Below, in pieces: positions 2,585 to 45,024 of a stretch of 64,000 nucleotides of DNA (positions within the stretch are counted from its first letter, which is position 1; every line of letters starts with the position of its first letter). A program made the position numbers and the translations under genes. The notes beneath the pieces are model-generated. The model was not told the DNA's origin. It searched no databases and saw only the letters and a program-made list of their open reading frames with translations. Source of the stretch: an uncultured Clostridia bacterium. GTDB lineage: Bacteria; Bacillota; Clostridia; Oscillospirales; Ruminococcaceae. The stretch lies in contig CANQVG010000006.1 in NCBI GenBank assembly GCA_947627235.1, positions 17,309-81,308 of the forward strand, read 5' to 3'.

Positions 2585-3460
2585 CTATTTAAGGTCTTTA
2601 TGTTTAAAGTGCATAAGTCCGAGAGCAGTAAACGCCGCCGTTATCGCGAGAGACGCGCAGTAGGCATAGATCGGCAGATCGAGCTGCTCTTCGCCGGAGC
2701 TGACGGTGTTGGCAAGAAGTATAGCCTGACCGCTCGGGAGCGCGTTCAGGATCCGCTTATAAACGCTGCGCTGCGGTTCGGGAATATAGTCGGGGTTGGG
2801 GTGGGGCGCGATCGGCTCCAATACCGTTTCGCCGTTTTCATTGGTCGAGATAGTAACTCCGTTCGACGCCATTTCGGGTTCTAAAAGTGTATTGTATAAA
2901 AAGCTCCCCGCCATAATTACCGCGAGCGCGATAACTATCTCGAAAACCGCGACGGCGGCTTTATTTGTGATGATATGGCTTATAAGGCAGAGTACAGCCG
3001 AAAACGCCACGCAGAACAGCGCGCTTTTGAGCACCAGAAGCAGCCATCCGAAGACTCCGACGCTCCATAGCCCCAGCACCGGCAGCGCCGAGAGCGAGCC
3101 GATATGCCACGCCGCGCAGAATACGAGCGAAGCCGCCGAAACGGTAATAAAGTTCGCGAGGTAGATGCGCCCGCGCCTGTTCCCGACAACTATCTTGTTT
3201 CTCATCGTTCCGTCTGAAAACTCGGTTCCGAGAAACATCGACGCGAACACGGGTATTACCAGCAAAACGACCGGACCGCTGTCGAAGCAGACCGATTCGG
3301 GAACGGCTTTCGCGTCGCTGTAAGGACCGGGTCTGTACAAAATATTGCATGCATTGTCGTATGCCGCCACTGCCGACCATACGAGCAGACAAAACGTTAA
3401 GATCCAGAAGAGCTTATTTTTGAACAAACGGTTGAAATTTGCCGACAAAAGATTTCTCAT
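2585..3460 (-). CDS. ABC-2 type permease (paralogue 2 of 4)
   Basis: LGTEFSDGTMRNKIVVG motif, multi-TM, C-terminal FKHKD. Confidence 0.85.
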   Translation of the reverse strand: MRNLLSANFNRLFKNKLFWILTFCLLVWSAVAAYDNACNILYRPGPYSDAKAVPESVCFDSGPVVLLVIPVFASMFLGTEFSDGTMRNKIVVGNRRGRIYLANFITVSAASLVFCAAWHIGSLSALPVLGLWSVGVFGWLLLVLKSALFCVAFSAVLCLISHIITNKAAVAVFEIVIALAVIMAGSFLYNTLLEPEMASNGVTISTNENGETVLEPIAPHPNPDYIPEPQRSVYKRILNALPSGQAILLANTVSSGEEQLDLPIYAYCASLAITAAFTALGLMHFKHKDLK

Positions 3461-42245: not shown

Positions 42246-42818
42246 ATGAAATTCATTGTTGAAACATCCGCGCGCCATGTGCACGTCACCGAGCAGGACC
42301 TCAAGATTCTGTTCGGCGAAAACGCAACCCTAACCAAGAAAAAGGACCTTTCGCAGCCCGGGCAGTACGCCTGTGAGGAGAGAGTCACTGTTGTCGGCCC
42401 CAAGAAGGAGCTTCCGAACGTCTCAATTCTCGGACCCTGCCGCAAAGCCACTCAGGTGGAGCTTTCCGCGACCGATGCCCGCTCTATAGGAATTGCCGCC
42501 CCGATACGCGAATCGGGAGACCTTGAGGGCAGCGGAGCCTGCAAGCTCGTCGGACCCTGCGGAGAGATCGAGCTTTCCGAGGGTGTTATCGTCGCGAAGC
42601 GTCATATCCACCTCACTCCCGAGGACGCCGCTTCGCTCGGCGTAAAGGACAAGGACGAGGTCTGGGTACGCATTGATACCGACGGCAGAAGCGCCATTCT
42701 GGGCGACGTTGTCTGCCGCGTGAGCGCATCGTACGCCACCGCTATGCATATCGACACCGATGAATCCAATGCGGTCGGCTGCGGCAGAGAGCAGTACGGA
42801 GAAATCGTAAAAGTTTGA
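42246..42818 (+). CDS. PduL-like phosphate acyltransferase
   Basis: SARHVHVTEQDLKILFG, VSILGPCRKATQVELSATDARSIGI, VAKRHIHLTPEDAASLGVKD. Confidence 0.88.
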   Translation: MKFIVETSARHVHVTEQDLKILFGENATLTKKKDLSQPGQYACEERVTVVGPKKELPNVSILGPCRKATQVELSATDARSIGIAAPIRESGDLEGSGACKLVGPCGEIELSEGVIVAKRHIHLTPEDAASLGVKDKDEVWVRIDTDGRSAILGDVVCRVSASYATAMHIDTDESNAVGCGREQYGEIVKV

Positions 42819-42855: not shown

Positions 42856-42884
42856 TTGTATTTTTCTGCGAAATTTAGTAAAAT
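42856..42884 (+). promoter_or_regulatory. Promoter of duplicated gene copy 1
   Basis: TTGTAT-17 bp-TAAAAT. Confidence 0.6.
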
Positions 42885-42934
42885 GTAAACAGGTAATTCA
42901 GTTACCAGACAAAATTTTTTGGAGGAATAGTAAA

Positions 42935-43654
42935 ATGAAAAAAGTATTAGCTCTTGTGCTTGCTTTGGCGGTTGCCCTTTGCGCGCTTTCCGTCACCGCT
43001 TTTGCCGACGAGAAGGTTGTTTTCGACAATGCTGAAGGCATAGTCCCTGATTCCTGCGACGAAGGTCCTTGGGGTTCTTTCGGTATTGTTGGTACTACTA
43101 TGGGTCGTGCCGACTGCTGCGACATCACTGTTGAAGATCTGGATGCTCTCTTTGCTGAGGGCGGCTGGACATTCACCTTTGTTTACAGCGGTACTCCTAA
43201 CAACTTCGGTATAGCAGCTAACCCTGATGCAAACCCGCAGTTTGTTGTAAACGAAGACTGGGATCATGGCGTTCAGACTACTCGCGTTGAACTCGGCGAC
43301 GGCAAATATCAGGCTACCATAGCCCTTGATGATATTCTCGCCTCTTATTCTGTTGCTGCTGACGCTGTTGCTCAGGCCTGCGTGCAGATTTACACCAGCG
43401 ATTTCAAGCTCTACTCTGCTAAGTTCACCAAGGGCGAAAGCGCGGCCGCTCCTGCCGATGAGACCCCTGCTGCTGACGAGACTCCTGCCGCTGACGAAAC
43501 CCCCGCTGCCGACGAGACTCCTGCTGCCGATGAAACTCCGGCTGCTGACGAGACTCCTGCCGACACCACTCCCGCTCCTGACACCGGTCTTGCCCTCGCG
43601 GTAATTCCCGCTGTTATGGCTCTTGCGGCTGTAGCTGTTTCCAAGAAGCACTGA
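42935..43654 (+). CDS. Secreted protein with (ADETPA)6 stalk and PDTG-type C-terminal anchor, copy 1
   Basis: Signal peptide MKKVLALVLALAVALCALSVTAFA; C-terminus TTPAPDTGLALAVIPAVMALAAVAVSKKH. Confidence 0.85.
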   Translation: MKKVLALVLALAVALCALSVTAFADEKVVFDNAEGIVPDSCDEGPWGSFGIVGTTMGRADCCDITVEDLDALFAEGGWTFTFVYSGTPNNFGIAANPDANPQFVVNEDWDHGVQTTRVELGDGKYQATIALDDILASYSVAADAVAQACVQIYTSDFKLYSAKFTKGESAAAPADETPAADETPAADETPAADETPAADETPAADETPADTTPAPDTGLALAVIPAVMALAAVAVSKKH

Positions 43655-43670
43655 TTAAGCAAACGAAATT

Positions 43671-43694
43671 CAAAGCTCCCTTAGGGGAGCTTTG
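43671..43694 (+). terminator. Terminator after copy 1
   Basis: caaagctccc-ttag-gggagctttg-ttttttg. Confidence 0.9.
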
Positions 43695-43751
43695 TTTTTT
43701 GTACAAAAATATTTTGTAGTTTTGTTGGTTTTGCCGAAAATAAAATTTTAC

Positions 43752-43780
43752 TTGACAAATTGTCAGAAATATGCGACAAT
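43752..43780 (+). promoter_or_regulatory. Promoter of duplicated gene copy 2
   Basis: TTGACA-17 bp-GACAAT with extended -10 TGc. Confidence 0.6.
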
Positions 43781-43839
43781 AAAGCTGTAGATTAAGCGGC
43801 ATATGCCGTGTCTAACAATTTTTTAGGAGGAATAGTAAA

Positions 43840-44559
43840 ATGAAAAAAGTATTAGCTCTTGTGCTTGCTTTGGCGGTTGCCCTTTGCGCGCTTTCCGTCA
43901 CCGCTTTTGCCGACGAGAAGGTTGTTTTCGACAATGCTGAAGGCATAGTCCCTGATTCCTGCGACGAAGGTCCTTGGGGTTCTTTCGGTATTGTTGGTAC
44001 TACTATGGGTCGTGCCGACTGCTGCGACATCACTGTTGAAGATCTGGATGCTCTCTTTGCTGAGGGCGGCTGGACATTCACCTTTGTTTACAGCGGTACT
44101 CCTAACAACTTCGGTATAGCAGCTAACCCTGATGCAAACCCGCAGTTTGTTGTAAACGAAGACTGGGATCATGGCGTTCAGACTACTCGCGTTGAACTCG
44201 GCGACGGCAAATATCAGGCTACCATAGCCCTTGATGATATTCTCGCCTCTTATTCTGTTGCTGCTGACGCTGTTGCTCAGGCCTGCGTGCAGATTTACAC
44301 CAGCGATTTCAAGCTCTACTCTGCTAAGTTCACCAAGGGCGAAAGCGCGGCCGCTCCTGCCGATGAGACCCCTGCTGCTGACGAGACTCCTGCCGCTGAC
44401 GAAACCCCCGCTGCCGACGAGACTCCTGCTGCCGATGAAACTCCGGCTGCTGACGAGACTCCTGCCGACACCACTCCCGCTCCTGACACCGGTCTTGCCC
44501 TCGCGGTAATTCCCGCTGTTATGGCTCTTGCGGCTGTAGTTGTTTCCAAGAAGCACTAA
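43840..44559 (+). CDS. Secreted protein with (ADETPA)6 stalk and PDTG-type C-terminal anchor, copy 2
   Basis: Same 239 aa as copy 1 except A to V near the C-terminus. Confidence 0.85.
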   Translation: MKKVLALVLALAVALCALSVTAFADEKVVFDNAEGIVPDSCDEGPWGSFGIVGTTMGRADCCDITVEDLDALFAEGGWTFTFVYSGTPNNFGIAANPDANPQFVVNEDWDHGVQTTRVELGDGKYQATIALDDILASYSVAADAVAQACVQIYTSDFKLYSAKFTKGESAAAPADETPAADETPAADETPAADETPAADETPAADETPADTTPAPDTGLALAVIPAVMALAAVVVSKKH

Positions 44560-44570
44560 GCTATTAAAGA

Positions 44571-44606
44571 CAAAAAAGACGTTCCCACGGGAACGTCTTT
44601 TTTGTG
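44571..44606. terminator. Bidirectional terminator
   Basis: acaaaaaagacgttcc-cacg-ggaacgtcttttttgt. Confidence 0.9.
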
Positions 44607-44610
44607 ATGT

Positions 44611-45024
44611 TTATTCCGCTTGCACGCCTATGATTTCAAAGTCGCAGGTCAGGTTTTTGACCTCGCCATCAACGGTCACATACAGGTGGAGCTTATAGAT
44701 GCCGCCTGCGAGTTCGCCGTAAACCGACGTCCAGTCGATGCTCTCGATTGCGGAGCCCTCCTCTATTTCGACGGCCGTTTCGGCATCTGCCTGAGTGTCG
44801 CTGCTCCCTTGGACCTCCGACCACGCGCCGCCCTCGTTGTGTTCAAGGTAGTAGTCGTTCGCTTTAAAGCTCAGCTTGCCATTGCCCTCAAGAGTGACTG
44901 TGTAGCTCAACCCCGTCGGAGTGACGCTTTCGGAGTCGATTGAGAGCTTAACCGTTGGCGGCTCGCCTCCGCATGCGCACAGCATCAGCGCAGCCGCGAG
45001 TATAAATGCCAGTATTCTTTTCAT
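44611..45024 (-). CDS. Lipoprotein with Ig-like (Big_14-like) domain
   Basis: Lipobox ALMLCACGG; IDWTSVYGELAGGIYKLHLYV. Confidence 0.75.
   Translation of the reverse strand: MKRILAFILAAALMLCACGGEPPTVKLSIDSESVTPTGLSYTVTLEGNGKLSFKANDYYLEHNEGGAWSEVQGSSDTQADAETAVEIEEGSAIESIDWTSVYGELAGGIYKLHLYVTVDGEVKNLTCDFEIIGVQAE

Follow-up and report, generated by a model that had tools for sequence, protein, structure and literature searches.

Probable replacement of a CBM65-type surface-protein gene by the coding sequence of its array neighbor, under a retained promoter, in a Ruminococcaceae bacterium

Two nearly identical genes in one array

The window analyzed here, a 64,000-nt stretch of one contig from an uncultured Clostridia bacterium of the Ruminococcaceae, contains two neighboring genes for nearly identical, putatively secreted and anchored surface proteins (Table 1). 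Both are open reading frames (ORFs) of 239 codons, separated by a spacer of 185 bp with 905 bp from start to start, and both lie within a single 81-kb contig of a draft assembly of 37 contigs (1.65 Mb; estimated completeness, 97.6%). The copies match exactly from -14 to +699 (A of ATG as 0), the match ending in codon 233, and an exact repeat of 714 nt cannot be a product of chance. The lone coding mismatch, C/T at 43635/44540, changes GCT (Ala) to GTT (Val) and lies 18 nt short of where the last codon ends; the stop codons are also unlike, TGA in copy 1 and TAA in copy 2. Because none of 140 fourfold-degenerate sites differs between the copies, whereas type-1 orthologs of other species differ by at least 0.44 per site (about 0.44 for the nearest species), the event that made them alike would appear to be recent, or conversion between them recurrent.

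These results bear out the observations of a first-pass annotation of this DNA, made from the sequence, which had described two near-identical genes that could be told apart at one coding position (A to V): the perfect tract lies inside one contig, and the annotation's figures of 717 nt and 905 bp correspond to the coding sequence minus the stop codon and to the start-to-start spacing. The recency that it proposed is supported as well. The abrupt upstream end of identity that it reported was also recovered. Identity ends at ggaggaatagtaaa, beyond which an alignment of the upstream DNA of the two genes scores within the range of shuffled sequence (local score, 18; null maximum, 37). The two genes have different promoters and different terminators, as had been claimed; P2, T1, and T2 were all recovered by scanning, and P1, although missed by the scan, can be read in the sequence. 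The two copies may be regulated separately, as that annotation had proposed.

Table 1. Features of the two-gene array and its surroundings (window coordinates)
Feature	Coordinates	Strand	Evidence
pduL-type phosphate propanoyltransferase, upstream synteny anchor of the array	42246..42818	+	Pfam PTAC, 2.6e-80; precedes the type-1 gene in G026 and G029; its 3' end in G020
Candidate promoter P1 of copy 1, TTGTAT-17-TAAAAT	42856..42884	+	Read by eye; weaker, not picked by scan
Predicted leader hairpin of copy 1, GGTAATTCAGTTACC	42892..42906	+	Predicted fold, weak alone; similar placement in most family leaders
Perfect repeat unit, copy 1, 714 nt	42921..43634	+	Sequence comparison
Copy 1, gene for a type-1 secreted, anchored surface protein; putative donor by synteny	42935..43654	+	ORF and alignment evidence; type-1 flanks on the upstream side
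Signal peptide of copy 1, MKKVLALVLALAVALCALSVTAFA	42935..43006	+	Sequence; aligned in 9/9 type-1 members
Ligand domain of copy 1, CBM65-like beta-sandwich by predicted fold; boundary approximate	43007..43440	+	AlphaFold2 pLDDT 75; Foldseek PDB ranks 1-5 all CBM65
Acidic Pro/Ala linker of copy 1, 18-nt unit, (ADETPA)n	43452..43582	+	Tandem Repeats Finder
Sortase-anchor-like tail of copy 1, PAPDTGLALAVIPAVMALAAVAVSKKH	43571..43651	+	Profile A1
Terminator T1, after copy 1	43671..43694	+	Scan; fold z -6.5
Promoter P2 of copy 2, TTGACA-17-GACAAT, with TG before the second hexamer	43752..43780	+	Scan; ortholog of the type-3 (CBM65-type) promoter
Predicted leader hairpin of copy 2, TAGATTAAGCGGCATATGCCGTGTCTA	43788..43814	+	Leader z -2.9 vs mononucleotide shuffles; equivalent in G026 and G029 type-3 leaders
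Perfect repeat unit, copy 2; putative conversion tract, RBS to tail	43826..44539	+	Sequence comparison
Copy 2, type-1 coding sequence at the position taken by a CBM65-type (type-3) paralog in G026, G029, and G020	43840..44559	+	Synteny, flank alignments
Sole coding difference, A to V	44540..44540	+	GTAGTTGTT, the codon string of the G029 slot-2 gene
Terminator T2	44570..44605	+	Scan, fold; orthologous to the terminator of the last G026 type-3 gene (score 96, alignment runs into the next gene)
Big_14 lipoprotein, downstream synteny anchor	44611..45024	-	Pfam, 3.1e-9; also follows the array, by alignment, in G026 and G020

Protein architecture and anchoring

The ligand domain of the window protein has no match in Pfam, including its CBM65 profile. 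Predicted models place it near the CBM65 carbohydrate-binding modules: CBM65 structures are also the top PDB matches of a type-3 paralog's model (pLDDT 77; Foldseek ranks 1, 2, 3, and 5), and the type-3 paralog of the related genome G029 passes the Pfam CBM65_1 cutoff (26.8 versus 25 bits). Identity of the type-1 and type-3 models to the CBM65 structures is 12 to 19%, and because the TM-scores are 0.4 to 0.6 and the E values exceed 0.001, we describe the type-1 domain only as likely to be a CBM65-like beta-sandwich. These surface proteins would, on such models, probably bind sugars. Other matches were set aside. Those to BASP1, BAC, and acid shock Asr fell below the Pfam and NCBIfam cutoffs and were driven by low complexity or the signal peptide, and a weak match to dihydrolipoyllysine succinyltransferase (best E value, 0.005), obtained in a PDB profile search with the type-1 alignment, was taken as a chance or low-complexity hit.

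A tripartite sorting signal is present in the C-terminal tail, with an xPxTG motif, 15 to 20 hydrophobic residues, and SKKH (profile A1). No curated anchor model matched the window gene, and the Rumino_NPXTG model scored 14 to 15 bits in 4 of 10 paralogs against a cutoff of 23.5 bits. The genome encodes four sortases, one of class C and three class-B-like, the latter scoring under the equivalog cutoff. The class C gene lies between two large pilin-like ORFs (G000:C14, L078), one ending in an LPHTG and the other in a PPTGD-type sorting signal, and two class-B-like genes adjoin on the minus strand (G000:C7, L080, 428-1333 and 1360-2496); the products of the latter pair are candidates for anchoring the family.

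Synteny of the array positions

Related genomes (designated by G numbers) carry the same array between the same neighbors, and there its second position is held by other paralogs. The order is pduL, type 1, type 3, type 3, Big_14, tadA, recR, dnaX in G026 and pduL, type 1, type 6, type 6, type 3, Big_14 in G020; G029 has pduL, type 1, type 3, followed by an unlike downstream gene, and type 3 follows type 1 in the G003 array as well. In the window, a type-1 gene occupies both positions.

The flanking DNA of each window gene aligns with that of its position. DNA upstream of copy 1 aligned with that upstream of type-1 genes (scores of 178, 164, and 159 for G020, G029, and G026, respectively), and DNA upstream of copy 2 aligned with that upstream of type-3 genes (96 for G029, 75 and 73 for G026; null maximum, 37; maximum for genes other than type 3, 50). 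Downstream of copy 2, the sequence aligned with that after the last G026 type-3 gene (score, 96), the alignment running on into the Big_14 gene. The ribosome binding site (RBS) is tttggagga in copy 1, as in type-1 genes, and ttaggagga in copy 2, as in slot-2 genes; the codon string of copy 2 at the single-nucleotide polymorphism (SNP) is that of the G029 slot-2 gene, and its TAA stop is that of the last G026 type-3 gene. The RBS context, codon string, and stop codon of copy 2, each a weak marker, also fit a type-3 slot. A search of the window genome with the G026 and G029 type-3 proteins found no stand-alone type-3 gene elsewhere; a 700-amino-acid protein on its contig C1 carries a domain that is 32% identical.

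A genus-level gene family with homogenized 3' ends

Judged from its sequences, the family is a genus-level set of arrayed, secreted, anchored short display proteins, and the protein-family libraries that we searched do not describe it as a whole. Members share a layout of signal peptide, one variable ligand domain (CBM65-like or of unknown kind), low-complexity linker, and NPXTG-like sorting tail, the tail having P-x-TG, a proline-bearing hydrophobic stretch, and SKKH or similar. Family matches, mostly through the C-terminal tail, occurred in all 31 genus genomes searched, and in many of these the small genes stand in tandem arrays. The tail profile matched 7 to 14 times per genome in ten genus members; outside the genus, 5 of 118 genomes of other genera in the taxonomic family were matched, with at most four weak matches each. 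Among named relatives, those nearest to the window gene are metagenome-assembled genomes of uncultured Clostridia from samples labeled Lapin. The central domains of 89 genes of less than 330 amino acids cluster by sequence into 14 multimember types plus singletons. Viewed by eye and without statistics, the linkers look genome specific: (ADETPA)n in the window genome, (AEEPA)n in G020, and TEAPATTEAPK in G017. Our searches of the open-license literature found no paper on the family or the array.

The two ends of these genes have different histories. In the ten genus members, nucleotide identity of the tail is 0.90 (0.76 at third positions) between genes of the same array with different domains, compared with 0.77 (0.55 at third positions) between cross-species orthologs and 0.73 between genes on other contigs of the same genome; the same-array value exceeds those of all 2,000 within-genome tail shuffles. 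Identity of the signal peptide is 0.53 within arrays versus 0.65 among orthologs. Of 43 genes, 27 have a tail closer to that of an array mate than to that of an ortholog, but only 5 have such a signal peptide; in 36 of the 43 the signal peptide is closer to an ortholog's. From these comparisons it follows that homogenization within arrays affects the 3' cassette and largely spares the 5' end, signal peptides following orthology.

Individual loci record further exchange. At L077:2688-4221 (G025:C5), an exact match of 189 nt at the linker and tail connects two genes whose ligand domains differ. At L060:3263-5022 (G020:C24), an 880-bp tandem duplication comprises the intergenic region and a type-6 gene; the encoded proteins are identical, and all nucleotide differences fall within the final ~130 nt of the gene, which suggests that the crossover took place in the tail. 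Conversion of a whole gene was seen once among the genomes examined, and most homogenization is limited to the 3' end.

Origin of the second copy

Our results suggest that copy 2 probably arose by nonreciprocal gene conversion: a CBM65-type neighbor would have been overwritten, from the RBS to the tail, by the type-1 coding sequence, and the neighbor's promoter would have been kept. That an existing gene was overwritten is suggested because the copy-2 flanks belong to a different paralog in related species. In the ancestor, slot 2 of the array would have held a CBM65-type paralog under promoter P2, and RecA-type recombination between the neighbors would have copied the type-1 coding sequence over it, the tract beginning at the shared RBS and stopping about 18 nt short of the conserved tail's end. 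One binding domain would then stand under two different promoters, and another binding specificity would have been lost. Since the 5' boundary lies in the ~9 to 14 nt of shared RBS, the 5' homology would have had to come from the part of the gene that encodes the signal peptide, which is about 60% alike among paralogs. Both the direction of conversion and the nature of the lost paralog are deduced from other species (type-1 protein identity, about 65%) rather than from a conspecific strain.

Two of the earlier proposals have to be reworded in this light. The promoters are unrelated to one another, as had been said, but the flank alignments indicate that each was inherited with its own array position. 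Of the alternatives "very recent duplication or ongoing gene conversion," the second fits a copy that lies between the flanks of another paralog; the first does not, as no flank was copied and the copies do not abut. "Tandem duplication" is probably the wrong description, and the locus should, on this comparative evidence, be recast as coding-sequence replacement under an inherited promoter instead of duplication under new promoters.

A simple tandem duplication was rejected, since neither flank was copied, unlike in the 880-bp unit of G020. That unit does provide a precedent in the family for a longer route, in which unequal crossing-over produced a tandem duplication that then lost the CBM65-type coding region and became fused to its promoter and terminator. 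The G020 unit, however, includes the intergenic region, whereas the window pair has an unrelated 185-bp spacer with neither flank copied, and at least two further precise events would be needed, at the RBS and at the tail; we consider this route very unlikely. Just as unlikely, in our estimation, is allelic replacement by DNA from another cell: a double crossover with incoming DNA would leave the same sequence outcome as conversion by the neighboring gene, but perfect identity to the adjacent copy makes that neighbor the simplest donor.

The pair could also be an artifact of assembly: either the genome contains a single type-1 gene, with another gene in slot 2, and the type-1 path was traversed twice during assembly, or two real copies exist and minor differences between them were collapsed. 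The draft is in 37 contigs, a 714-bp repeat is longer than short reads, and a few SNPs inside the repeat could have been lost in short-read assembly. The one SNP that survives, 18 nt from the repeat end, is close to unique 3' sequence, a place at which a de Bruijn graph would be expected to keep the two copies apart. Identity within the repeat, which is known from assembled sequence only, is possibly inflated by such collapse. The junction of P2 with the type-1 sequence would be hard to produce falsely, because only 14 nt there are common with copy 1, too few for a graph assembler without spanning reads. Moreover, the other family genes of the genome have exact overlaps of at most 43 nt with the type-1 gene, and an orphan CBM65-type fragment was not found in the genome. 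We regard an artifact as unlikely, and conversion of the slot-2 gene by its neighbor is the reading that we carry forward.

Relation to known systems

The process proposed here, conversion of a coding sequence, is already known; the variant is new, and the family as a whole is new to the libraries searched. In Helicobacter pylori, the 3' segments of babA/babB and homA/homB undergo within-strain concerted evolution while the 5' segments diverge, and whole or partial coding sequences move between expression loci by gene conversion (PMC3960876). The window family resembles these genes in comprising paralogous surface genes with 3' concerted evolution and conversion between loci. It differs in that the H. 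pylori proteins are Gram-negative outer-membrane proteins from separated loci, whereas here Gram-positive-type anchored proteins are encoded in tandem arrays, with ligand domains that are unrelated or only remotely related and linkers that are particular to each species. For prokaryotic genes such as tuf and mtrA, concerted evolution over long periods has been described, and there whole housekeeping proteins are homogenized (PMC6053082). As with those genes, paralogs within a genome are more alike than orthologs between species; unlike them, this family is homogenized mainly in the linker and tail, and its ligand domains differ.

At the level of the domain, the nearest known relative is the CBM65 of Eubacterium cellulosolvens Cel5A (PDB 5afe, 4aem, 4afd, 4afm, and 4ba6; Pfam PF18259), to which the type-3 domain has a profile match and which both models match first. 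The domains of the window family, however, are not attached to an enzyme, and type 1 is without a Pfam match. The C-terminal xPxTG motif, hydrophobic stretch, and basic end recall the Ruminococcus-type NPXTG-anchored proteins (NCBIfam NF033846), although the family motif is APDTG, APNTG, or APKTG and the hydrophobic stretch carries proline.

Replacement of a coding sequence beneath a promoter that stays in place has so far been best known from H. pylori adhesins, and the locus would provide an example from a Gram-positive-type gut commensal. A genus-level family of CBM-like display proteins, anchored and encoded in arrays, comes to light as well. If the replacement is confirmed, it becomes testable how a gut commensal alters surface sugar binding without altering regulation. 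The locus also carries a caution that near-identical neighbors in draft genomes are not necessarily duplications. More tentatively, and with the balance of our expectation against it, we speculate that the genus might reassort its surface binding domains in general. In such a scheme, recombination would exchange whole ligand domains between arrays of fixed promoter-plus-leader slots and a homogenized linker-anchor cassette, and binding specificity would be shuffled independently of the expression program.

Leader regions of the family

In most family leaders, a small hairpin is predicted downstream of the -10 region and ahead of the RBS, in a comparable place and with varying sequence (76 leaders; mean z, -1.6 against mononucleotide shuffles), and an Rfam search of the leaders found no known RNA family. 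Protection of the 5' end of the mRNA is one possibility for such leader hairpins. At L070 (G024:C9), the leaders of the genes at 3031 and 3892, hairpin included, are identical, and the domains encoded by these genes differ; this is the opposite of the arrangement in the window. The type-2 genes, of which one was found per genome (L086, L088, L090, L093, L095, L096, L097, L101, L106, and L121), have a common conserved leader close to GTAAATGAAAGTGGGGAA and are without the usual GGAGG spacing.
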